A stretch of 64,000 nt of DNA from Sphingomonas sp. 67-36. Its GTDB lineage: Bacteria > Pseudomonadota > Alphaproteobacteria > Sphingomonadales > Sphingomonadaceae. This document shows, one piece after another, positions 3,698 to 17,516 of the stretch. Numbering within the stretch: position 1 is the stretch's first letter; each line of letters begins with the position of its first letter. The translations under genes and the position numbers were made by a program. The stretch spans positions 110,147 to 174,146 of the forward strand of contig MKSU01000017.1 of the NCBI GenBank assembly GCA_001897375.1, read 5' to 3'. The notes beneath the pieces are model-generated. The model did not search any database. It was not told the origin of the DNA and saw only the letters and a program-made list of their open reading frames with translations.

Positions 3698-4975
3698 ATG
3701 ATGCTGACTCAACTCCAAATCACCGCCGCGAAACCAAAGGCCAAACCCTACACCCTCGCTGATGGGCAAGGGCTGGCTCTTTTTGTACAGCCGTCAGGGG
3801 CGAAACTCTGGCGCTTCCGGTACCGATACGGCGGCACGGCCAAGACACTGCACATAGGGCCTTGGCCGACTGTCTCCCTCGCCGACGCCCGCGAGAAATG
3901 TCGCGAGGCTAGAAAGGCCATCGCCGCCGGACAAGACCCTGTCCTTGAGAAGAAGCGGGCAAAGGTCACCGCGAAGTTCGCCGTGGCAACGAGCTTCAAG
4001 GAAGTCGCGCTCGAGTGGATCGCGAAATGCGAGCGCGAAGGACGGGCCGAGGTTACCATCGACAAGATTCGCTGGCTGCTTGGTATGGCATACCCACTGA
4101 TCGGCTCCCACCCGATCAACGCCATCACTCCGACCGAGGCGCTGGCGGTGTTGCGCAAGGTCGAGACAAAGGGCCGCTACGAAAGCGCCCGACGGATGCG
4201 GAGCGTCCTAAGTCGAGTGTTTCGGTATGGCATTGCCACTGCTCGCTGCGACCGCGATGTTGCTGCCGATTTGCGTGGCGCACTGACGACTCCGAGAACC
4301 TCGCACCACGCCGCAATCACCGATCCGATCGAGGTCGGAGTCCTTCTGAAGTCGATCGATGATTATCCCGGGCAGGACGTCACCCGCATGGCTCTGCGGT
4401 TATCCCCGCACCTGTTTGTCCGTCCGGGCGAGCTTCGGCAGGCAGAATGGTCCGAGATCGACGTCGACAAGGGAATCTGGTGCATCCCTGTCGAGAAGAT
4501 GAAGATGCGCCGTGCCCATAGGGTACCGTTGTCGCGCCAGGCGCTAGCGATCATCGAGGAACTTCGCGAACTCACCGGGCAACGCCAACATCTCTTCCCA
4601 TGCATGGGCAGTCCCAGGCGACCGATGTCTGAGAATGGCGTGAACCAGGCGCTGCGAAGAATGGGATACGAGGGTAGCGAAATGACGGCGCATGGCTTCC
4701 GGGCAATGGCCGCAACGCTGCTCAATGAAATGGGTCGATGGAATCCCGATGCGATCGAACGGCAGCTTGCCCACCAAGAGGCATCATCCGTGCGGCGCGC
4801 CTATGCCCGCGGCGAATATTGGGACGAACGAGTGCTGATGATGCAGCACTGGTCGGACTATCTCGACAAGTTGCGCGAGGCTGCAGAAGGCCCTCGACCC
4901 GCGGCTCCTGTGCGTAAGAAGCCTAAATTGCAAAGATCGAAGGCGGGGCGGCCGCGCGGTCGCCCAAGGAGGTAG
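3698..4975 (+). CDS. Tyrosine recombinase / integrase (P4 type, DUF4102 N-terminus)
   Basis: Site-specific recombinase expected to integrate and excise the island at tRNA-Leu. The N-terminal DUF4102 domain (residues 1-85, ADGQGLALFVQPSGAKLWRFRY) is followed by a SAM-like core-binding domain and the catalytic domain. Catalytic residues are in place: R242 in VRPGELRQAEW, H332xxR335 in HGFRAM, H359 in LAHQ, and Y369 in RRAYARGEYW. The 425-residue length is normal. The basic tail (KKPKLQRSKAGRPRGRPRR) probably helps DNA binding. The gene starts 174 bp after the tRNA, the standard arrangement. It looks intact. Confidence 0.95.
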   Translation: MMLTQLQITAAKPKAKPYTLADGQGLALFVQPSGAKLWRFRYRYGGTAKTLHIGPWPTVSLADAREKCREARKAIAAGQDPVLEKKRAKVTAKFAVATSFKEVALEWIAKCEREGRAEVTIDKIRWLLGMAYPLIGSHPINAITPTEALAVLRKVETKGRYESARRMRSVLSRVFRYGIATARCDRDVAADLRGALTTPRTSHHAAITDPIEVGVLLKSIDDYPGQDVTRMALRLSPHLFVRPGELRQAEWSEIDVDKGIWCIPVEKMKMRRAHRVPLSRQALAIIEELRELTGQRQHLFPCMGSPRRPMSENGVNQALRRMGYEGSEMTAHGFRAMAATLLNEMGRWNPDAIERQLAHQEASSVRRAYARGEYWDERVLMMQHWSDYLDKLREAAEGPRPAAPVRKKPKLQRSKAGRPRGRPRR

Positions 4976-6361: not shown

Positions 6362-7105
6362 CTAGCGCGACGCCGCACGATACGATGCCAACTGCTTTAG
6401 GTTGTCTCGTATGCGCGAAGCAAGTTCGCTACGGCCTATGCCACTGATCATCTCCAGATCTGTCAGGCAGTCATATGCCTGCCATGGCATCAGCGGGGAA
6501 TCTCCATCCCGCGCAAAAGGTGCGTCGGTTTCGGTCAGCATCCGGTCCAATGGCATGGCCGCTGCCAGCTCGCGCCCCCTCCGGGAGCGCAGCATTGCCG
6601 GTCCGACCGAAAACCAGCACCCGAGCTGGGCCGCTCGTTCCAGTTCTTTCATCGTGCCGCTGAACCAATGAAGGATCGGTGTTCCGGCATCAGCTTGGCG
6701 CTCTAGCGCGTCAAGCACCGCAGTCGCAGCTCCGCGGGAATGGATCGTCATGACGCGCCCACCTAGCATCGCGCATTCGGTGAGTATCCGATCGAAGACC
6801 GCTTTTTGCAGCTCAAGCGAGTCCCTATGCGGCGGGCTTCCGTCAATCCCGATCTCGCCCACATATCGAGCTCCTGGGAGGAGGCCACATAGCAGGGGAA
6901 CTTCCTGATGGCGCTGTGCGACAAGTTCCGGATGCAGGCCGAGAGCGACACGCACGCGCCTGCGATCACCGACCAACTTCTTCGTTCCACGCCAAGCCTT
7001 CGGCGTCGTCGTGACCGCCAGCACATAGGTTCCTCTCGCATCGACTTCATCGAGGACGGCCTGAGGGTCAGGGAAAAGATCAATATGACAGTGGAAATCA
7101 ATCAA
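6362..7105 (-). CDS. qatD: QatD: TatD-family nuclease of the Qat defence system
   Basis: Metal-dependent hydrolase of the TatD DNase family, fourth component of the Qat anti-phage system. All expected metal ligands are visible: H5 and H7 (DFHCH), E84 (VGEIGID), H122 (IHSRGA), H146 (LHWFSG) and D194 (TETDAPF). The 247-residue length is normal. Its ATG overlaps the qatC stop by four bases (ATGA, 7102-7105), showing translational coupling. Within Qat it is presumed to act on nucleic acid; its exact substrate there is not established. Confidence 0.92.
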   Translation of the reverse strand: MIDFHCHIDLFPDPQAVLDEVDARGTYVLAVTTTPKAWRGTKKLVGDRRRVRVALGLHPELVAQRHQEVPLLCGLLPGARYVGEIGIDGSPPHRDSLELQKAVFDRILTECAMLGGRVMTIHSRGAATAVLDALERQADAGTPILHWFSGTMKELERAAQLGCWFSVGPAMLRSRRGRELAAAMPLDRMLTETDAPFARDGDSPLMPWQAYDCLTDLEMISGIGRSELASRIRDNLKQLASYRAASR

Positions 7106-8382
7106 GTGACACCGAGGTGGGCGTGGAGCGTGGAGAGTTCTGCGATGCCACGCCGGACAACCTCACGATAGGGGGCAACGTCACCGAGCATTCGCGCATT
7201 CATTGCGCCGCCGATCAGCTCGTCGACGCCATGTCGGCGCACTGTTTCAATGGCCATGGCCACGGATCGAACGTCATCGAACCGGGCATGCCGCACATCA
7301 TCCTGGCCCAACGGTCCGTATTTGTAGCCGTCGGTGGTATCGTCGTTCTGGCCCCACGCGAGATACGCGCCACGTCGCACCTGACAGGGTACGCAGCGAC
7401 CGCAATGCTGGAAGCCCGTGCGAGAATAGCGCCCGCAGCTGGTCGAATCGTTGACCAGTTGAGCCAGAAGGGCTTGGTCCGTACACCCCGAGAGCATTTC
7501 ACCCTTCGTGCTGTGCACATAGGGGTTGTTCAAGCGAACCCGCAAGCCGGCCGCGTCGAGTGTCTCCTGAATGAGGCGCAGGAAATATGGGTGCGTCGTG
7601 CGCGTGCTGAGGCTCCCGGTGCGCAGAGGAGTTAGCGGCACGTTCTGGCTGATGAAGCCATTTTCGGGGATGCGCAGTTCGACCTCATCACCATCGTGAT
7701 GTCGCCGAAGGCAGGTTGCTGCCAGCACGCCGAAGCCGAGGAAGGCAATCGAGCGTGCGCGTTGGGATCGCTCTGATGTCCCGGGTGGTCGCGCATGGTG
7801 GTTGAGCTGAAGATGCAGGCTTTGGCGCGCGATGGTCTCAGCGAACATCTTCTGGTCCGCAGTATCGCCTTTGGCCATCTGGCTGACGAACAAAGGTTTG
7901 CGTCCCTCTCTGACGACATCGATTGCGCCAATCAGGCTATCCATGCCGCCCGACAGCAAACAGACTATGTCCTCATTGCGCAATCGCATCGGATCGCTGG
8001 TCGTTGGAACGGCACCGTCTCCAATGAAGTGTAGCTCCCAAATGTCTCCGGAAAGAAAGCGGAGCGCCTGAGTAACGCGGCCGCGCTGCGAGTTCCAGAA
8101 ATCTGGCGAGGAGACGGCAACCGTCAGTGCGATTTCACGCGTCCATCCATCTGGGCTGCGCTCGCGCGATACCGCCTCGTCGGCAGCGACCACGGCCATC
8201 GCGAACGAGGCGAAGTCCCAAGCGTCGATTGATGGCCGGAGGCCAAGCCGGCGGACACGTCCGGGCACTAGGTTGCCGACACGCCCGCGTCCCGCGAGAC
8301 GCGATCGGGAATACATATCGAAGCGCAGATCGGTCCCGGCCTGATCCGGGAGATCCTCGGGAAGACATGCGACTCTAATCAC
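7102..8382 (-). CDS. qatC: QatC: QueC-like ATP pyrophosphatase of the Qat system
   Basis: Homologue of 7-cyano-7-deazaguanine synthase (QueC) in the defence-specific QatC form. A PP-loop SGGMDS is at residues 144-149 and the QueC-type zinc cysteines are at C316, C327, C330 and C333 (CGRC.PC). About 135 residues precede the PP-loop; housekeeping QueC lacks these. QatC is thought to make or install a deazaguanine-type modification, possibly on protein or nucleic acid; this is not shown here. The gene is coupled at both ends by four-base overlaps (with qatB at 8379-8382, with qatD at 7102-7105). No other queuosine gene lies nearby. Confidence 0.92.
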   Translation of the reverse strand: MIRVACLPEDLPDQAGTDLRFDMYSRSRLAGRGRVGNLVPGRVRRLGLRPSIDAWDFASFAMAVVAADEAVSRERSPDGWTREIALTVAVSSPDFWNSQRGRVTQALRFLSGDIWELHFIGDGAVPTTSDPMRLRNEDIVCLLSGGMDSLIGAIDVVREGRKPLFVSQMAKGDTADQKMFAETIARQSLHLQLNHHARPPGTSERSQRARSIAFLGFGVLAATCLRRHHDGDEVELRIPENGFISQNVPLTPLRTGSLSTRTTHPYFLRLIQETLDAAGLRVRLNNPYVHSTKGEMLSGCTDQALLAQLVNDSTSCGRYSRTGFQHCGRCVPCQVRRGAYLAWGQNDDTTDGYKYGPLGQDDVRHARFDDVRSVAMAIETVRRHGVDELIGGAMNARMLGDVAPYREVVRRGIAELSTLHAHLGVT

Positions 8383-9284
8383 AGCCCGCCATCCTCCTCA
8401 AACACTTCGAAGGCCTGTTGGATCGCGTTGCGTGAAATCCGGTCGATAGCCGCGCGGCCGACAGTGCCGACCTTAGCGCGTTCCGCCGCATATTCTGCGG
8501 CTACGACTTCACGTACATAGTCCTTCATCTCTTGGAGCCGCTCCAGTCCGTCGCCCTTCGTGGGGGCTTTGGCGATGATCGATTTTCCGACATCGAGTTC
8601 AACGCGCAGGGCAACATCATATCCAAGAGTCGAGGCCGTGACCTGATCGACCTGTTGCGGTGTCAGGCTGGTGATATCGACATTCTGGTCCAGAATGTCG
8701 GATAGCGCTCTCGCTACCGAATCGCGCGTCGCCTCTGCATCCTGCGTGCCATCGAATGGTCTGATCGCATCGACGAGAGTGTCGATAAACTCCGAAGTCG
8801 ACAGTCCGACCAGGGCCTGTGGGTCGATCCCAAGTTCCTGTGGAAGAGCTTCGCCGCTCGCCAACGCGGAGAGAGCGCTGTGCAGGACACTGGCGGTCCT
8901 AGCCGAGCCAGCCATCCTGCGGGCGGCATTGCGGCTACCGCCCATGCCACTTCGCGAATAGTGGCCGAGACCACGACGCAGGTGCCTGCCGCGGTCATCG
9001 CCGCCGCTTCCGAATTTGCCGAGCGACGTCCGCACACCGCGCCAGCGGCCAGGCGTCGAGGGTTCGGGCTGCGGCTGTGGCTGAGGTTCTGGTGGCTGCG
9101 AAACCTGAGGATTGGGAGGTGGAGGGGTATGTGGCGAAGGCGACGTGGGCGGCTGCGCCGGCGCAGGCGTTGGCTGTGTCGGCTGAGGCACAGGCTGCTG
9201 AGCCGGCGGATTATCGACCCAAGGTGGCACGATTGGGATATCCGGGCCTGATCCTGGGCCGCGGCTGGAAGCGGACGTGCCCAT
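8379..9284 (-). CDS. qatB: QatB: Qat system protein with proline-rich N-terminus
   Basis: 301-residue protein. The start MGTSASSRGPGSG..IPIVPPW is the conserved QatB N-terminus. It is followed by a long low-complexity Pro/Gln segment (about residues 25-75) and a helical C-terminal domain without known catalytic motifs. QatB is required in the Qat anti-phage system but has no assigned biochemical activity. By analogy with QatC's QueC ancestry, the conserved flexible N-terminus could be a modification target; that is speculation. Its ATG shares one base with the qatA stop (TGATG at 9284) and its end overlaps qatC. Confidence 0.88.
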   Translation of the reverse strand: MGTSASSRGPGSGPDIPIVPPWVDNPPAQQPVPQPTQPTPAPAQPPTSPSPHTPPPPNPQVSQPPEPQPQPQPEPSTPGRWRGVRTSLGKFGSGGDDRGRHLRRGLGHYSRSGMGGSRNAARRMAGSARTASVLHSALSALASGEALPQELGIDPQALVGLSTSEFIDTLVDAIRPFDGTQDAEATRDSVARALSDILDQNVDITSLTPQQVDQVTASTLGYDVALRVELDVGKSIIAKAPTKGDGLERLQEMKDYVREVVAAEYAAERAKVGTVGRAAIDRISRNAIQQAFEVFEEDGGL

Positions 9285-11203
9285 CAGCCCTTCTCCTTCA
9301 TCGACTTCACGACGGCATTCTTTGTTGTAGGTGGCAGGTCACCACGCTTGTTAAAGGCGACGAGAACCTGCCGCCCCCATGGCAGCGGCGCGAGCCGCGG
9401 CACGATGGACGGTTTGATCTGGCTCGATGGCACGTCACTGAAAAAGGCGATGATCGCGCTGGCAGACGTAGGCGAGGCAGCGGCGAGAGCCTGCAACGCA
9501 TTGAGGATCGACGGGATACCCCAAGAGGTCTCCCCTCTTGCCTTTGTGATGATCTTGTCGGTTATGCGACCGATCTCTGGGTTCGACAGGCTCGCGATCT
9601 CATCGCCGACGGTCGGACTCGCAGAGTTCAACTTCAGAAGCATGTCGAGCACTTCCATCGCCTCGGAAGATAGTTCGTCGGCGCGTGAGATGATCGGGTG
9701 GCTTTCTCTGCCGACGTAGAGGGCGCCGCGCAGATCCTTATCAGCGAGTAGGGGGTCCAGCGCGAGCCAGTTCACATGAAACGCTTCGTTCCATGGTTTT
9801 TCGAGTTCGGGGGCGCTGTCGTCGCCGCGCGCACGACGCTCCATGTCACGGAGAAACGCAGCGTGGCCGTCCTCGGACTCGTTCACCGCCCGCAGCAGTT
9901 CGGCGTAGGCATCCTTGTCGCCACAGCGTTCGAACAGCAGCAGCTTGACCAGCACCTCCTCATCGACCGTCACCGACTGGATCCGTGCCATGGAACTCCG
10001 CATCGACAGGGTATTGAGGAATCGCTTGATGAGGCGCGGATTACCGCGAATCTTGGGGGAGGTTGTGAGGATCGGCGCGATGCGCTCCGCAAGCGCCAGG
10101 CGGTTCAGCAGGCCTGGCGGGCATTCCGCGTTCGGCGGACAGGTCTTGATCGTTTCGGATACGAACGTTTTGTCAACCCGCGCCCCGGTCCAGGATTGAG
10201 CAAGACGTGTGCATACGGCCTCGCGCACGCTGTCCTTAACGTCATCGCCAAGGTCCGGATCGGCATCGACGAACAGCATCATCAGATAGGCTCGGACTTC
10301 CTGCGTACCTAATGCGGGCACACGGATTGGCAGCTGGATTAGCTTGTCGAAATAGTTGGTGACTAGATCATCATCGAGCGCGGCATTCTCGAAATGCGAC
10401 CGCACTGCCTGCCGAATCATGCCTTCGTCGGCGGCGATGACGAATGCGGTGTGTTTCAGGAAGAGGAACAACCGCATTGACTCAAGCGTCGCGATTGCGG
10501 TCTTGGGCAGGCAGCGGTCCAAATCGTCGATCAGCACCACGAGTGTAACGCCAAGCTCAGTCAACGTCGCCTCTAAATCGTCGCGAAAGGCCTGGATTGC
10601 TCGGCGCGGACTATCAGGCTCTTCTTGCTCGGGCGCACTTTCAGGCTTTTTATCACCGACTAGTTCTTTCCCGCCTTCATAGGTGTCTGTCGCAAGCTTC
10701 TGGGCTTTCTTCAGGTCCGCGCCGGTGATGTCGCCGTCAAGCAAACCAGTTACGGTCCCCATTCCAGCGGCTAAAAATGGTGTAAGATGGCCGCCAGAAT
10801 AAATGTCGAGCGCTGTGGAACCTACGAGACCCAGCAGCCTCAGTTTCTTCACCCGGCCGAACAGGCTGCGGGCGTGCTTAAGCGCGGTCTCCGACAGCGA
10901 GTCCTTCTTAGCAACAGTCTGTTCGACCACGGTGGCGGCGATCGCCTCCATCAGCGCAGCACGGGCGTCATCGTAATTCTGATAGAGCCAGGCGTTGAAC
11001 TCGACGAAGCGGAATTCGACGTCTTCGTGCTTGTCGAGCGATGTGCGTAGCAGCTTCATCATCGACGATTTGCCGACACCCCAGTCACCGGAGATGCCTA
11101 CTGAGAGAGGCTCGCCTTTCGCACCGACGATCCGTTCTGCTGCGATGTCCGCGACGTGAGAGAAATTGACTAAATCACGAACAGTTTCGTTATCTGACCA
11201 CAT
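9284..11203 (-). CDS. qatA: QatA: KAP-family P-loop ATPase of the Qat system
   Basis: 639-residue KAP NTPase. Walker A is GDWGVGKSS (residues 39-47), followed by the KAP-typical NAWLY (70-74), and Walker B is LVVLIDDLDRCLP (221-233). A hydrophobic stretch at about residues 124-155 sits between the Walker motifs, where many KAP proteins have an inserted membrane segment. KAP ATPases are frequent in defence systems as sensors or assembly motors. It is the first qat gene, 86 bp after the ImmA-type protease gene on the same strand. No good ribosome site precedes the ATG, so translation or transcription from upstream is plausible. Confidence 0.92.
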   Translation of the reverse strand: MWSDNETVRDLVNFSHVADIAAERIVGAKGEPLSVGISGDWGVGKSSMMKLLRTSLDKHEDVEFRFVEFNAWLYQNYDDARAALMEAIAATVVEQTVAKKDSLSETALKHARSLFGRVKKLRLLGLVGSTALDIYSGGHLTPFLAAGMGTVTGLLDGDITGADLKKAQKLATDTYEGGKELVGDKKPESAPEQEEPDSPRRAIQAFRDDLEATLTELGVTLVVLIDDLDRCLPKTAIATLESMRLFLFLKHTAFVIAADEGMIRQAVRSHFENAALDDDLVTNYFDKLIQLPIRVPALGTQEVRAYLMMLFVDADPDLGDDVKDSVREAVCTRLAQSWTGARVDKTFVSETIKTCPPNAECPPGLLNRLALAERIAPILTTSPKIRGNPRLIKRFLNTLSMRSSMARIQSVTVDEEVLVKLLLFERCGDKDAYAELLRAVNESEDGHAAFLRDMERRARGDDSAPELEKPWNEAFHVNWLALDPLLADKDLRGALYVGRESHPIISRADELSSEAMEVLDMLLKLNSASPTVGDEIASLSNPEIGRITDKIITKARGETSWGIPSILNALQALAAASPTSASAIIAFFSDVPSSQIKPSIVPRLAPLPWGRQVLVAFNKRGDLPPTTKNAVVKSMKEKG

Positions 11204-11289
11204 TCAGGCTTACCCCACCGTTCCCCTCACGTTCCAATTTATTCTGCAGACCGTCAACCAAACACAGCACCAGATCCGATGGCTTTATT

Positions 11290-12051
11290 TCACCCGAGCA
11301 TGCCAGAATCCGTGAGGGTCAGCAGAGTCAGGATTTCTCCGCCATGCGCCTTGACCGACTGCTCGGTAAGGCGGAAGCGCGCTGCGCCCCGCTGATCGAA
11401 CCAGCTATCCGCGCCTGTCGTCTGTAAAGGCGAGCGCTCGGCATCGCCGAAAAGCACTGTAAACGCCGACGATGACGCGTCGAGATCTTCACGCGGGAAC
11501 CAATGGTCGGGAACACTGGGGCTGCGCTTAAACCAGCGTCGTCCGCCATTCCCGTGGCAGACCAACACGACCGGCCATCCTGCCAAATCGAGGCAACGTA
11601 GCGCGGTCGCCAGCCGGCTTGTCGCATAATCGTTGGCGAGTGCATCAATCGCCTCGAAGCTGGGCCGACGGTGCGCAGCGAGCGAGGGCAGGAATAGATA
11701 ACGGGGCATGAGCAGATCGGCGGCAAAGCGGTCGGCTTGGCGCTCAAGCTGACTGGCTGAGCCGGGATTGCCGATCTCGCTCGACCGGCACACCGAAGAG
11801 CGACCGCGATGGTGAGCCCAATGCCCAAGCTCGTGCCCGATCGAGAATCGTCGACGGCGTGGATCACCGCCTCGCTGGACGGTGATAATCGCGCGGTCAT
11901 TATAGCCAATGATGCGCGCCTCACAGCTTTCGAGCACGGCATCGCGCACCTTGACACCGGCTGACCACGCAATCGCCTCCAAGTCGATGTCGGCGGGTCG
12001 AGTGACGCCCAGCGAACGCAGCAAGGCTTCCGCTGGGCTGTCAGCTGTCAT
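11290..12051 (-). CDS. ImmA/IrrE-family metalloprotease
   Basis: 253-residue zinc peptidase of the ImmA/IrrE (COG2856) family. The zinc motif HELGH (H73, E74, H77) and a downstream acidic ligand region ERQADRFAADLLMP (residues 103-116) are present. Known members cleave repressors or regulators, such as ImmR in ICEBs1 and DdrO in Deinococcus, to derepress genes under stress. Its ATG overlaps the stop of the preceding 141-residue protein by four bases, so that protein or the sigma-like protein is a natural candidate substrate. It lies directly upstream of qatA. The C-terminal part (about residues 150-253) has no motif I recognise. Confidence 0.88.
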   Translation of the reverse strand: MTADSPAEALLRSLGVTRPADIDLEAIAWSAGVKVRDAVLESCEARIIGYNDRAIITVQRGGDPRRRRFSIGHELGHWAHHRGRSSVCRSSEIGNPGSASQLERQADRFAADLLMPRYLFLPSLAAHRRPSFEAIDALANDYATSRLATALRCLDLAGWPVVLVCHGNGGRRWFKRSPSVPDHWFPREDLDASSSAFTVLFGDAERSPLQTTGADSWFDQRGAARFRLTEQSVKAHGGEILTLLTLTDSGMLG

Positions 12052-12473
12052 ATGGGATTGCCCTCATCATCGATCGCACCGAGCTCCCGCAAATCGTCGA
12101 GAATAGCGTCTATCTCCTTCTCGCTGACACCCTCGCCCTTGCGCGCAGCCATCGTCAGACGACCTTTGAGCTTGGGATCGTCATTGGCGAAGCGCGTCAG
12201 CACCGCTTCGCGCCGGTCTGCACGGAGCGGCGGACGTACCACCCGCGCTTTGCGGTCGCGACTGACAGCCCTTCTCGCTGCGGCGAGCCGCGCCTGGCCG
12301 ACACGCGCAACGCCACCGGCGATCGCGCTCCGCGCGGCCGCCGCCTCCGCCTCGACATCCAAACCATCGGCAGCCAGCTCAGCGAGCAGTTCGGCGTCGC
12401 TGAGGTTCATCAAATCGTCGGCCAGTTCGTCGAGTAGTCGGTGGAGCGCAGGATCGGGCTTGTCGCCGCTCAC
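12048..12473 (-). CDS. Small conserved partner of ImmA/IrrE, unknown function
   Basis: About 141 residues, acidic and alanine-rich at the N-terminus (ALHRLLDELADDLMNLSDAELLAEL), with a basic centre (RRAVSRDRKARVVRPPLRADRR) and an acidic tail ending in EKEIDAILDDLRELGAIDDEGNP. I chose the GTG at 12473 because it forms a GTGA overlap with the upstream stop and has GGTGGA five bases before it; a GTG at 12482 would add three residues. I recall similar small proteins beside ImmA/IrrE genes. It could be an inhibitor or anti-sigma-like partner cleaved by the protease, which is inference from gene order. Confidence 0.6.
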   Translation of the reverse strand: MSGDKPDPALHRLLDELADDLMNLSDAELLAELAADGLDVEAEAAAARSAIAGGVARVGQARLAAARRAVSRDRKARVVRPPLRADRREAVLTRFANDDPKLKGRLTMAARKGEGVSEKEIDAILDDLRELGAIDDEGNPI

Positions 12474-13036
12474 GCAGTCCACCCGGCTGGATACCTCCCA
12501 TTGATCGCCCGGCGCATGCGGCGTCGAATGGTAGCATAGGCCTTATCGTCCAGGTCGTTCATGGTCATAATCTCCTCCTTCGAGTAAAATTCCAGGTCGC
12601 ACATCAGCATCAGCAACGCCTGCTCGTCGTCCGCGAACAAAGCTTCGAGAGCCATGATACGCTCCGACATGTCCTCTGCGGCCAACAGGCGCGTTTCAGC
12701 GTCGGGATCAGGATCAACGGGAACGACGAGCAGCCGCCCGTCGGTGCCTGTGGCATCGAGCGAAACCGTCTCCTTGACGCGACCGGTGGAACCGCGTGCC
12801 GCCGAGGCGATGCTGCGCATCGCTCCGATCAGGAACGGCACCAGCGCCATCGTCCGCGGGCAGACACGCGCGCCGGACAGTATCGCGGCAACGGCCTCGC
12901 CGATCAGGTCGTCGGCCTCGCATGCGAGACCGAGAGCGTAGATACGGCCGGTGCGGCGCAAACGGGCGAGATCGATGGCAGCGAGACCATCGAGTGCCGC
13001 GCGGATTTCGTCAGGGTCGAATGCGTCGCGGTTCAC
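12470..13036 (-). CDS. Sigma-70-like protein (divergent, region 2 and region 4 like)
   Basis: About 188 residues. The segment RTGRIYALGLACEADDLIGEAVAAIL followed by PFLIGAMRSIASAARG looks like sigma region 2 (compare 'ADDL..EA'). The C-terminal part, from ALFADDEQALLMLMCDLEFYSKEEI to KAYATIRRRMRRAI, looks like region 4. Similar proteins are often annotated as sigma-70 family. The start is uncertain: the longest frame opens at a TTG (13093) without a ribosome site, whereas the GTG at 13036 has GGGAG four bases upstream. It heads a co-directional block: sigma-like, small protein, ImmA protease, qatABCD. A regulatory role for that block is inferred. Confidence 0.6.
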   Translation of the reverse strand: MNRDAFDPDEIRAALDGLAAIDLARLRRTGRIYALGLACEADDLIGEAVAAILSGARVCPRTMALVPFLIGAMRSIASAARGSTGRVKETVSLDATGTDGRLLVVPVDPDPDAETRLLAAEDMSERIMALEALFADDEQALLMLMCDLEFYSKEEIMTMNDLDDKAYATIRRRMRRAINGRYPAGWTA

Positions 13037-13226
13037 GTCACTCCCAAGGGCTGCCTTTGGACGTAGGCTGACTCTGTGCGCCGCCTCGGACAAGCAGACA
13101 AAATATTCTTCAGATGTCCGCGAGAGTTGCCGCGCTCAGCCTACTCCCTTGAGCGCCAATCATGGGGTTCGGGAGCGGTGTCGCAAGCCGGCTTACCCAA
13201 TAGCGCGGGGAAGGAGGAAGACGAAC

Positions 13227-13448
13227 ATGGGCAAGAACCAGCATGTGGTACCGCACGAAGGCGGCTGGGCGGTTCGCGGAGCGGGCAACGAGCGCGCGAC
13301 GTCGGTGCACGAGACTCAGGCTGCAGCGATCGAGGCGGCACGCGGAATCGCGCAGAACCAGCACAGCGAGCTGCTGATCCATGGCCGCAATGGTCAGATC
13401 CGCGAGCGCGACAGCTTTGGCGGCGATCCCTTCCCGCCGCGCGGCTGA
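13227..13448 (+). CDS. DUF2188-type small protein
   Basis: 73-residue protein beginning MGKNQHVVPHEGGWAVRGAGN, with the DUF2188 pattern: an N-terminal 'VVPH..GWAVR' strand pair, a helix (ATSVHETQAAAIEAARGIAQ) and 'ELLIHGRNGQIRERDSFG'. The function of DUF2188 is unknown; it is common in accessory regions and often paired with another small orphan protein, as here. A strong ribosome site (GGAGG, 13213-13217) precedes the ATG by nine bases. It is transcribed divergently from the sigma-like gene, about 190 bp away. Confidence 0.85.
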   Translation: MGKNQHVVPHEGGWAVRGAGNERATSVHETQAAAIEAARGIAQNQHSELLIHGRNGQIRERDSFGGDPFPPRG

Positions 13449-13499
13449 ACAACCCTGGGGGCCGCGCACCCGCGCGGCCCCAACCGTAAGAAGAGCATC

Positions 13500-13712
13500 A
13501 TGGCAAAAGGCAGAAGTGGCGGCTCGTTCCGCAGTGCGATCAGCGGGCGCTTCGTAACGGCAAAGCACGGCAAGGCATCGCCGCGCACGACCGTCTTCGA
13601 GCGGTCGGGCGGCGGCAGCACAGGCGGCACCTACCGGAGCGCGATCAGCGGCCGGTTTGTGACGACTGCGCATGGCAAGCGTAGCCCTAACACCACGATC
13701 AAGGACAGCTGA
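13500..13712 (+). CDS. Small tandem-repeat protein (RSAISGRFVT repeats)
   Basis: 70-residue basic protein made of two copies of one unit: SFRSAISGRFVTAKHGKASPRTTV and TYRSAISGRFVTTAHGKRSPNTTI, separated by a glycine-serine linker (ERSGGGSTGG). I recall similar RSA(I/K)TGR(F/Y)V repeat proteins as widespread orphans, sometimes mis-annotated as transporters. It has no membrane segment and no known function. It lies 51 bp after the DUF2188 gene, likely in the same transcript, and is followed by a strong hairpin. Confidence 0.8.
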   Translation: MAKGRSGGSFRSAISGRFVTAKHGKASPRTTVFERSGGGSTGGTYRSAISGRFVTTAHGKRSPNTTIKDS

Positions 13713-13742
13713 AGGAAGGCGGTCGGCAACGGCCGCCTTCCT
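13713..13742 (+). terminator. Hairpin after the tandem-repeat protein gene
   Basis: AGGAAGGCGG (13713-13722) pairs perfectly with CCGCCTTCCT (13733-13742) around a 10-nt loop, starting one base after the stop codon at 13712. The T-run is weak. Its position suggests it ends the two-gene DUF2188/repeat-protein transcript. The rest of the gap to 13959 shows nothing else I can name. Confidence 0.6.
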
Positions 13743-13959
13743 GTCACCTACGAATCCTATCTTCTTTTTACCACTGGCAGCTTTTGGGAACGCCGAAAGC
13801 GGCCGTGAACGGCGACAATTGAGGCGCAATCCAGACCAGCCGCTGCCTCCCCATTGCTGCTGCAGGCGGTGGTAGACCGCCTCGACGCAAGCCATCCCCG
13901 AGCCTCAAGCAAATGGCACGACCCATTTCACCTTCCAGGCCGTATCGCTATCAAATGTC

Positions 13960-14859
13960 ATGGCATTCGGCGTTTTCATTCACCGATCTGATTCGATCTA
14001 CGACGATACGCCAGCCGAGCGATATCAGTTTCCTAGGCAGTATCTGGAGCGGGCAAAGGCCTGCGTCGGCGACTGGATCGTCTACTACGAACCTCGAAAA
14101 GTACTCGGTACCAAGGGCTACTACGCCGTTGCCAAGGTCGAACGCGTCATTCCCGATCCTTCGACACCCGACATGTATCTCGCGCTGATTGAGCCGGGGA
14201 GTTATCTGGACTTTGCAACGCCGGTCCCGTTCGCTGACGAAAGCGGCCCGATCGAACGCGGCGTACTCAATGATGTGGGGCGTATTTCAGGTCGAGCACA
14301 AGCCGCTGTCCGAGGTCTGTCGCCGAGTGACTTTGACCGGATTATTGACGCCGGTCTCGCCGACGAAAATCCCCTTCTGCCGCGAACCGGCAGCGCGACC
14401 GCAGACCACTCACTACGCGAAGAGCGCACGCCCTTCGTTTTTGATGAAGCGCGAGAGCGTGTCGCGACACTCGTATCAAGGGTTGTTCGTGACCGCGTTT
14501 TCCGGCGGATCGTCCTGCGCGCATATGATGAACGCTGCGCCGTCACCGGTTTAAAGCTGATCAACGGTGGCGGGCGAGCAGAAGTCGAGGCAGCGCATAT
14601 TCGCCCGGTTGAGGCTAACGGTCCCGACATCGTCAGCAACGGTCTCGCGCTGTCCGGAACAGCCCATTGGATGTTTGATCGCGGACTGATCGGGCTTGAT
14701 GATGATCTTCAGATTCTGGTGTCGCGACAGGCAAACGATCAGGACGGCATCCGCGGTATCATCAACAATCGCGGGCGCTTGCTTATGCCGGTGCGGGAGG
14801 CCGATCGCCCCCACCAGCAATTCGTTCGGTGGCACCGGGAGCATTGTTTCAAACATTGA
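13960..14859 (+). CDS. HNH endonuclease with N-terminal PUA/EVE-like domain
   Basis: 299-residue protein. Residues 1-95 (MAFGVFIHRSDSIYDDTPAERY..GDWIVYYEPRKV..GYYAVAKVERV) look like a PUA/EVE-type domain; some members of that superfamily read modified bases. The C-terminal part holds an HNH/McrA-like nuclease: RCAVTG, then EAAHI, then SNGLAL, then HWMFDRGLI (about residues 188-240). This layout is expected for a modification-dependent (type IV) restriction enzyme. No methyltransferase is nearby, which fits. The start lacks a clear ribosome site. The restriction role is inferred from domains and from the defence setting. Confidence 0.75.
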   Translation: MAFGVFIHRSDSIYDDTPAERYQFPRQYLERAKACVGDWIVYYEPRKVLGTKGYYAVAKVERVIPDPSTPDMYLALIEPGSYLDFATPVPFADESGPIERGVLNDVGRISGRAQAAVRGLSPSDFDRIIDAGLADENPLLPRTGSATADHSLREERTPFVFDEARERVATLVSRVVRDRVFRRIVLRAYDERCAVTGLKLINGGGRAEVEAAHIRPVEANGPDIVSNGLALSGTAHWMFDRGLIGLDDDLQILVSRQANDQDGIRGIINNRGRLLMPVREADRPHQQFVRWHREHCFKH

Positions 14860-16373: not shown

Positions 16374-17516
16374 TCAGGCGAGATCGGCAATCTCGACAGG
16401 CTCGATCAGGGCGATCGCGACGGGGAGCCAATAGCGCGTCCCTTTCTGCTCGCCGGTTCGCAGCAGCGCGCCGAGCCCGACCAAAGCGGCCAGGTCGCGT
16501 GTCGTCGTCGCCGTTGGGGCGCCAGTTATGGTCATATAATTGGCGGCGCTTAGGCCACCCATAAAGCCGTCCGGCCCAGCGGCGAACATCCGTAACAGCG
16601 CGCGTTCCTGACGATCGTTCAGCTTGCCGCGCAGGCCTTCCATAGTGCGGGCCTTGGCCAGGACGAACTCGACCTGCCGAAGCGTCCGACGCTGGGCTTC
16701 GATCGCCTTGGCCGCGAACCACAGCAGCCAGTTGGTAATCTCCAGCGCCCCATGGGTACGCTCGAGCGCGGCGTAATAGGCTTTGCGGTGCGCCAGCAGG
16801 GTGCTCGCCATGCCGGTGACGATCGGGGTAGGCAGGCCTTGGGCGAGCAACTTCTCGCTGATGGCGCGACCGATCCGGCCATTGCCGTCTTCATAAGGAT
16901 GGATGCTCTCGAACCAGATATGCGCAAGACCAGCCCGCGTCAGCGGCGTAATCGGTGTTGACCCGCCCGGCCGGCTTCGTTCGATCCATGTCAGGAACGC
17001 CACCATCTCCTCTTCGACCCGCGCCGCGGGCGGCGCTTCGAAATGGATCTTCGGTCGATGGATCGGCCCGGATACGATCTGCATAGGGTCACCGCCGCTT
17101 CTGTAGCGACCGATGTCTGCAAGATCAGTGCGGCCGTTGATGACATGACGATGCCATCGGTCGAGCGTGGCTCGATCCAACGGCTCGGCGACACGCTCGT
17201 AAAGATCGACCATCATCTCGGCGATGCCGGCCTCGGCCGGCTTTACCCGACGTTGATCCCCGGCGAGCCCCAGATGCCGGCGGATCGAGGATTGGACGCT
17301 GTCGCGATCGAGCGTCTCTCCTTCGATCGCCGAGGTGTCGATGGCCTCATGGCTCATCAACTCGATCTCAAGGCTGCTGCGGTCAGCTTCGTCCAGATGT
17401 CGTGATACACCGATCGCGATGCCCACACCCTCGAGGAACAAGGCTTCGGCCTTCTGCAGCCGAGGCGCATCCCACGAGAAATTCGGCCAATCAGGCTGCT
17501 GCCAGTTCCACGTCAT
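16374..17516 (-). CDS. Fic-family AMP-transferase with DUF4172 and C-terminal winged helix
   Basis: 380 residues in three parts: an N-terminal DUF4172 domain (WNWQQPDWPNFSWD..), a Fic core with HPYEDGNGRIGR (residues 206-217), and a C-terminal winged helix (about 300-375, ending GTRYWL). The core motif is HPxxDGNGR-type and complete, so adenylylation activity is expected. An inhibitory-type motif TxxxEG (TSAIEG, 61-66) matches class II Fic proteins, where this helix blocks ATP binding. SoFic of Shewanella has the same architecture and length. No separate antitoxin is visible. The start codon lies inside a palindromic operator, so autoregulation by the winged helix is plausible. Confidence 0.92.
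   Translation of the reverse strand: MTWNWQQPDWPNFSWDAPRLQKAEALFLEGVGIAIGVSRHLDEADRSSLEIELMSHEAIDTSAIEGETLDRDSVQSSIRRHLGLAGDQRRVKPAEAGIAEMMVDLYERVAEPLDRATLDRWHRHVINGRTDLADIGRYRSGGDPMQIVSGPIHRPKIHFEAPPAARVEEEMVAFLTWIERSRPGGSTPITPLTRAGLAHIWFESIHPYEDGNGRIGRAISEKLLAQGLPTPIVTGMASTLLAHRKAYYAALERTHGALEITNWLLWFAAKAIEAQRRTLRQVEFVLAKARTMEGLRGKLNDRQERALLRMFAAGPDGFMGGLSAANYMTITGAPTATTTRDLAALVGLGALLRTGEQKGTRYWLPVAIALIEPVEIADLA

Follow-up and report, generated by a model that had tools for sequence, protein, structure and literature searches.

Results

A three-gene module lies between a predicted promoter pair and the Qat operon

We analyzed a 64,000-nucleotide window of Sphingomonas sp. 67-36 (contig MKSU01000017.1; coordinates are positions in this window unless another locus is named), in which three genes encoding a sigma-like protein, a small helical protein and an ImmA/IrrE-family protease, hereafter called the trio, lie directly upstream of the qatABCD operon. 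The trio is contained in a cassette with the following features.

12470..13036, minus strand: gene for an extracytoplasmic function (ECF) sigma-like protein of 188 amino acids (aa), regions 2 and 4, GTG start at 13036
12048..12473, minus strand: gene for a small helical partner of 141 aa, putative anti-sigma factor and protease substrate, GTG start at 12473
11290..12051, minus strand: capP, gene for a CapP-type ImmA/IrrE metalloprotease of 253 aa with the motif HELGH, ATG start
13063..13092, minus strand: predicted ECF-type promoter of the trio, TGTCCG-N17-AGCCTAC, one of two exact sites in the genome
13115..13144, plus strand: predicted ECF-type promoter of the divergent DUF2188 gene, TGTCCG-N17-AGCCTAC, the other exact site in the genome
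13227..13448, plus strand: gene for a DUF2188 protein of 73 aa (Pfam DUF2188, E 4.9e-28), likely cargo under the sigma factor
13500..13712, plus strand: gene for a 70-aa protein in the block 93% identical to Sphingomonas oleivorans, likely a second cargo gene
11290..13832, no strand: whole cassette (70-aa gene, DUF2188 gene, two promoters, sigma, partner and protease genes), a block of DNA identity

The small gene starts with a GTG at 12473 that shares bases with the sigma stop codon TGA (GTGA), an ATGA overlap at 12051 joins the small gene to the protease gene, and 86 bp separate the capP stop from the qatA start (11203) on the same strand. This architecture, together with the HELGH motif, is exactly as the first-pass annotation of the sequence had described it. 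A longer TTG start of the sigma gene exists at 13093; because it sits upstream of the predicted trio promoter, the start at 13036 is favoured. For the small protein, the list of open reading frames contains an alternative start at 12482, which gives 144 aa.

The sigma-like protein alone had no family match in Pfam, NCBIfam and PADLOC searches. A profile of 66 sequences (alignment A4, built from 72 loci without L041, L043, L053, L083, L094, L095 and L106, which are near-copies or fragments) matched ECF SigH chains in the PDB with an E-value of 1.4e-6 over positions 40-184 of 194, that is, over regions 2 and 4 only, as in an ECF sigma factor; Pfam Sigma70_r2 was matched by 17 of the 66 members. 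The earlier label "sigma-like" was therefore correct, but it took a family profile to see it, since the single sequence has no Pfam match. An AlphaFold2 model (pLDDT, the predicted local distance difference test score, of 85) shows two helical parts with a low-confidence linker between them, and ranks 2-10 of a Foldseek search with this model were ECF sigma chains (probability 0.93-1.00, E 4e-3 to 3e-2).

The protease matched PADLOC capP over residues 3-246 (E 1.8e-61) and Pfam Peptidase_M78 (E 8.2e-16), its profile matched the solved CapP 7t5t (E 2.6e-9), and HELGH is invariant in all four rows of its alignment A3. A quick tree divided the trio proteases (37 rows) from canonical CapH-linked CapPs (14 rows, L238 having been omitted from 15 capP matches) by a single change (support 98), though one canonical row drew a long-branch warning.

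The model of the small partner is all-helical (pLDDT 84.5). The window partner matches PADLOC capH weakly (E 3e-4), and a weak winged-helix match covers residues 111-139 (E 0.037). No XRE-type helix-turn-helix (HTH) repressor adjoins the protease, whose neighbours are the sigma factor and this helical protein without a recognised HTH. An LT(L/M)AAR motif is conserved at residues 109-114 (144-aa numbering), where model confidence is moderate, and AAR is kept in 63 of 69 partners (alignment A5, from 75 loci without L037, L041, L043, L057, L094, L095 and L108). The small protein is probably the anti-sigma factor of the sigma gene, with the LT(L/M)AAR stretch as a candidate cleavage site.

The module is conserved and has sharp borders

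The sigma alignment yielded no pattern usable for a scan of the collection, and the protease alignment served instead for scanning genome contigs. The best 80 of 202 confirmed loci were taken as relatives; they come mostly from Alphaproteobacteria, with some from beta-, gamma- and other bacteria. The upstream sigma gene was found in 72 of these 80 protease loci (in L041 as a 77-residue fragment) and the small gene, usually overlapping, in 75. Among the eight loci lacking the sigma gene, four have under 430 bp of upstream contig. Such recurrence indicates that the gene order is not a matter of chance. Since the loci were picked by protease similarity, the frequency of the sigma and partner genes without the protease cannot be read from them.

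The cassette (11294-13832) is 93% identical at the DNA level to Sphingomonas oleivorans, and a second genome shows 91% identity over 11294-12299, where its contig ends. Both homology blocks break at the capP stop. Several copies of the trio are on plasmids or close to integrases. On a Cereibacter sphaeroides plasmid (L010, NZ_CP012967.1), the sigma gene is divergent from an operon of a cyclic-oligonucleotide-based anti-phage signalling system (CBASS), but there the small gene, of 78 aa, and the ImmA/IrrE gene, whose annotation is split, appear broken.

Two sphingomonad relatives (L157 and L158, genomes G178 and G203) carry the sigma and small genes with no CapP match, the small gene of L158 being assigned from position and alignment only. 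In both, a strong promoter pair faces multiubiquitin-like and JAB-like genes, as judged by eye, and the LT(L/M)AAR consensus is departed from. That they keep the sigma factor, the partner, the promoter pair and a ubiquitin-like operon without CapP suggests that the sensor may be exchangeable. In their vicinity lies a 448-464 aa protein whose N-terminus resembles proteasome-like hydrolases; this identity was suspected from the N-terminus, found no convincing Pfam match and is not claimed. L158 is also near a zeta-toxin-like kinase (Pfam 2e-9).

Two back-to-back promoter elements precede the trio and the divergent gene

Alignment of the window with seven close relatives revealed two back-to-back elements, TGTCCG-N16/17-AGCCTAC, with the consensus TGTCCG-N16/17-[AC]GC[CA]TA. 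The pattern TGTCCGN16-17MGCMTA occurs in this genome at exactly two sites, both here, compared with six for the reversed pattern. A weight matrix was applied to 71 loci, namely 66 of the 80 (L041, L083, L094, L095, L106 and then L043 having been omitted), four plasmid loci and the window itself, and it detected elements in both orientations in 57 of them; in order-1 Markov shuffles scored with the same threshold, the rate was 7.5% per strand. When a matrix was made from the sigma-directed elements of half of the loci, it found the divergent element in 74% of the other half and in 0.6% after reversal at threshold 12 (80% against 6.5% at threshold 10, 85% against 14% at threshold 8), a test that is only partly held out because the full matrix had located the training elements and some loci are close kin. 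A plain scan allowing up to three mismatches was weaker, with both strands in 39 of 72 loci and any strand in 56, against 14-20 in shuffles.

The two -10 elements within a locus share 6.0 of 7 bases, whereas 5000 permutations gave a mean of 4.5 and a maximum of 5.0, and the type of the element tracks the sigma tree with 19 changes over 54 rows, against a shuffled mean of 32.6 and a minimum of 29 in 200. None of the five canonical CapH loci examined out of 14 has both elements, the best single score being 8.1. Judged by sequence, the trio is predicted to have the bipartite promoter with a 16-17 bp spacer before its own operon that is typical of ECF sigma factors.

Two further observations were made on these regions. 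Distances between the two -35 elements, read by eye in the 57 loci, cluster near 6-7, 10-13, 20-24 and 29-32 bp, roughly in helical steps, and in the leader of the DUF2188 gene, at about 13150-13195, a block GGGTAAGnCGGCTTGCGAC.CCGCTCCCGA (minus strand) is almost invariant in the window and the seven relatives.

Divergent cargo is often an immune operon

Of the 72 loci with a sigma gene, 32 have an immune cluster on the side of that gene, CBASS-type in 12 and ubiquitin-like in 20, and 21 have a small-gene cluster there. Every one of these clusters is divergent, and within 5 kb beyond the protease there was neither kind in any of the 72 loci. The clusters were chosen by eye from recurrent ones, and no locus was removed for the counts, so that the near-copies L093-L095 are among the 72. 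ThiF/JAB, multiubiquitin, CD-NTase, patatin, SAVED, DUF2188 and a 92-aa protein were chosen before the locus map, while E2-ThiF-JAB, DUF6791-ThiF, DUF3892, c29 and the 70-aa protein were picked after it, so that for these five the absence from the protease side partly reflects how they were selected. Representatives were identified as CD-NTase, patatin phospholipase, ThiF/JAB, multiubiquitin/E2, E2-ThiF-JAB, DUF6791-ThiF, DUF3892, SAVED and DUF2188. Heuristic gene calls placed a divergent gene before the sigma gene in 55 of 66 loci. That cargo type follows the sigma tree was considered and rejected: 9 changes over 28 rows give no signal against a shuffled mean of 8.4.

A DUF2188 gene is divergent in 10 of 72 relatives. 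The order of the DUF2188 and 70-aa genes in the window is as in S. oleivorans and L038, and the 70-aa gene is at the same place in L036 and L038. The 70-aa protein matched no family above chance; an internal stretch, YRSAISGRFVT..HGK.SP.TT, is repeated in it twice. A DUF2188-like gene is likewise faced by the canonical CapH-CapP locus L212, as judged by eye, and DUF2188 may for that reason be a common cargo of damage-responsive controllers.

Two other cargo proteins recur. The 92-residue protein (MIYSINYDLKRPGQNY...), a frequent divergent cargo (L049, 8564-8842, and 11 other loci; cluster 5), has no Pfam or PADLOC match and presumably resembles SinR/Cas2-like proteins. A 387-residue protein beside the E2-ThiF-JAB fusion (L095, 7638-8801, and five other loci; cluster 17) has weak PADLOC matches to RTasMBL and LmuA, and the pair looks like a ubiquitin-like operon.

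The neighbouring Qat operon has its own upstream region

The operon beyond the protease is a complete Qat system with qatA, B, C and D in order.

6362..11203, minus strand: qatABCD, neighbour outside the cassette, all four matched by NCBIfam and PADLOC Qat models
11203-9284, minus strand: QatA, NCBIfam score 393 against a cut-off of 600, strong in PADLOC
9284-8379, minus strand: QatB, above the NCBIfam cut-off
8382-7102, minus strand: QatC, above the NCBIfam cut-off
7105-6362, minus strand: QatD, above the NCBIfam cut-off
11220..11234, minus strand: LexA-type (SOS) box GAAC-N7-GAAC, 31 bp before qatA, predicted from sequence only

QatA-D were found in none of the 80 trio loci (phmmer, E<=1e-3; flanks up to 10 kb, shorter at contig ends), and trio genes in none of 23 other Qat loci (E<=1e-3; 2.5 to 6.7 kb upstream of qatA covered), which comprised eight from the order, seven from the class and eight of 96 plasmid records with a match. 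Among 296 genomes of the order, QatA is present in eight including this one (E<=1e-40) and the trio-type protease in this one only (E<=1e-20); among 385 genomes of the class, QatA is in eight, this one included. One QatA-bearing genome (G652) has a sigma-like gene too (E 2.4e-34), though the two lie some 6.3 Mb apart on one contig. A block at 6469-11257 shares 80% DNA identity with a Qat locus that has no trio; it begins 54 bp before qatA, so the homology blocks of the cassette and of Qat abut between capP and qatA. Among the 80 loci, the gene after the protease runs in the same direction in 31 and in the opposite direction in 44, and in five none was called (heuristic calls within 1.5 kb).

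Neither a terminator nor a sigma-70 consensus promoter was listed in our scans between capP and qatA, so read-through into qatA is possible, and a promoter of the trio-sigma type before qatA was sought and rejected (best score -4.5). The 54 bp common to both Qat copies hold TTGACG and GAAC-N7-GAAC. Conservation of this stretch, with both motifs, in a Qat locus that lacks the trio favours a separate promoter for qatA. We take GTTC-N7-GTTC to be the alphaproteobacterial LexA box: two overlapping boxes stand directly before lexA in this genome, and sites number 75 genome-wide against 27 for the reversed pattern. Such a box lies within 60 bp of three of 24 qatA starts, where 24 x 60 bp would be expected to hold 0.03, and no box was found from -400 to +350 at the remaining 21; two of the three box-bearing loci are related copies, and some starts are perhaps annotated too early. 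The Qat loci L149 and L156 share the box. Because qatA has its own LexA box, Qat is probably SOS-regulated here and may be SOS-induced in sphingomonads; our literature search found no paper joining Qat, LexA and anti-phage.

A tyrosine integrase (3698-4975), an HNH nuclease related to phosphorothioate-dependent restriction (13960-14859) and a Fic protein (16374-17516) flank the Qat/trio region, which is probably a defence island.

Discussion

The locus offers a conserved module, promoter elements that co-vary with the sigma gene, and a cassette with definable borders, all read from the DNA. We propose, with a probability of roughly 0.7, that the trio is a self-contained portable switch for immune or stress genes, whose first gene encodes an ECF sigma factor that serves a single promoter region; the anti-sigma role, the cleavage, the trigger and the expression are what we infer, as follows. 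DNA damage or infection would activate the protease, by single-stranded DNA as in its known relatives. The active CapP-type protease would cleave the small partner and set the sigma factor free, which would bring RNA polymerase to the two back-to-back promoters and raise both the trio operon, making the switch self-amplifying, and the divergent cargo. In the window this cargo would be the DUF2188 and 70-residue proteins; in relatives it would often be a CBASS or ubiquitin-like operon. Cleavage of an anti-sigma factor is the simplest reading of a protease from a repressor-cleaving family that adjoins an ECF sigma factor and a small protein coupled to it.

Several known systems resemble this arrangement. 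CapH+CapP is reportedly described as a regulator of immune operons by Lau in 2022; among the papers listed by our literature searches we recognised none describing a sigma factor with CapP or with Qat, although a remark on sigma-linked CapP in that same work is possible. SigmaE-RseA is an ECF sigma/anti-sigma pair released by regulated proteolysis. Like such pairs, the trio has a two-domain sigma factor, a promoter with a 16-17 bp spacer before its own operon and a small protein encoded directly downstream, but no membrane protein is seen, a protease of the same operon is proposed, and the cargo is often immune. ImmA-ImmR likewise combines a protease and a small regulator in one operon on mobile DNA; ImmR, however, is an HTH repressor that governs transfer genes.

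A further comparison is with damage-responsive controllers. CapP activated by single-stranded DNA cleaves CapH (PMC13373217, PMC10904395), IrrE/PprI of Deinococcus is a single-stranded-DNA-sensing protease that cleaves the repressor DdrO (PMC10904395), and the controllers CapW/BrxR, CapH+CapP and CapK+CapS act through repressors (PMC13373217). The trio shares with CapH+CapP a CapP-type protease placed beside immune operons such as CBASS and Bub (PMC13373217), the presumed single-stranded DNA trigger and, as the proposed protease target, the protein encoded immediately upstream. Immune operons adjoin the trio in the 32 of 72 relatives given above, and DUF2188 is the divergent cargo in the window itself. 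Where CapH+CapP has the HTH repressor CapH, the trio has an ECF sigma factor and a small helical protein; its output would be activation from a dedicated promoter, and its proteases form a separate branch. The trio is thus a variation on CapH+CapP, with sigma factor and partner in place of the repressor. IrrE/PprI belongs to the same protease family, with single-stranded DNA sensing and regulator cleavage known, whereas its target DdrO is a repressor and no sigma factor is noted in the accessible part of PMC10904395. CapK+CapS also controls diverse immune operons in response to damage, but through a kinase and a STAS repressor, with no sigma output in the portion of PMC13373217 at hand. In the searchable text of the QatABCD paper (PMC13279940), the words "protease" and "promoter" are absent and "sigma" appears only as a supplier name or a statistic.

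A number of observations weigh against the switch. No Foldseek match to the sigma model reaches an E-value as low as 0.001, TM-scores are low, and the partner has no PDB fold match at E below 1 and matches no known anti-sigma fold. PADLOC capH, the model of a DNA-binding repressor, is weakly matched by 38 of 69 partners (E<=0.01, best 4e-6). In six of the 69 loci AAR becomes AFR or EHR while the protease is retained; because of this variation the motif is a candidate cleavage site only, and we rejected it as proof of one. In 14 of 71 loci, of which 12 fall within L097-L114, the weight matrix found no promoter pair. As for cargo, 22 of 72 loci show none that is recognised as immune or small, the gene before the sigma gene is on the same strand in eight and not called in three of 66 loci, and the window cargo is DUF2188, a domain of unknown function.

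The capH matches are what an ordinary CapH+CapP system with an extra gene would predict, in which the small protein would repress by binding DNA, as CapH does, with the sigma-like protein as its co-factor, and the weak winged-helix match points the same way. However, 144 of 160 genomes also have matches to the capH model, many of them covering only about positions 3-73, and the canonical CapHs examined end in an FFRKY-type tail that is not seen in the partner. The trio proteases separate from canonical CapPs on the quick tree, with the long-branch warning mentioned above, and the promoter evidence points to a sigma output, with none of the five canonical loci examined having both elements; we regard this explanation as unlikely. 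Slightly less credit still goes to the proposal of the first-pass annotation that the trio belongs to Qat and controls its expression or activity, which drew on the shared strand and the 86-bp gap. No terminator was found in the gap and no sigma-70 promoter was listed there, and yet the conserved 54 bp with TTGACG and the LexA box speak for separate control of qatA. The co-occurrence survey was negative in both directions (0/80, 0/23), which together with the DNA breakpoints led us to reject the trio as a Qat component; moreover, in the 75 loci where a gene was called within 1.5 kb after capP, only 31 have it in the same direction, and qatA has no sigma-type promoter. Qat is probably a separate unit with its own LexA-box promoter region, receiving at most read-through from the trio. 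What survives of the earlier proposal is a probable regulatory role, the protease being a likely sensor and the small protein a likely inhibitor or protease target; the link to Qat in particular found no support.

A control switch of a mobile element, similar to ImmA/ImmR of ICEBs1, would govern transfer or excision and carry the immune operons as passengers. Copies on plasmids or near integrases and the 22 loci without recognised cargo would suit it, but the promoter pair faces immune or small cargo and the trio itself, with no further exact site in the genome, and we find this improbable. The PDB labels the solved relative "CapP toxin", which might suggest a toxin-antitoxin pair in which the protease is the toxin, together with a sigma-like antitoxin. 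Such a pair would account neither for the promoter architecture nor for the two genomes that have the sigma and small genes without capP, and we give it hardly any weight.

With somewhat less assurance than for the switch itself, we think it likely that the trio represents an undescribed class of immune-operon controller: a portable ECF sigma/anti-sigma pair, gated by a CapP-type damage protease, that has its own promoter pair and swaps its cargo freely. CapW or CapH+CapP accompanies 219 of 544 Bub operons according to PMC13373217, and some of these controllers might be of the sigma type. The locus also carries a caution, in that a regulator directly upstream of a defence operon and on the same strand need not regulate that operon. 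If the switch is real, it would bear on how immune operons are silenced and activated: each system would have a testable promoter, and a sigma-based, self-amplifying switch with a readable promoter would allow cargo to be found by motif, including unknown cargo such as DUF2188.

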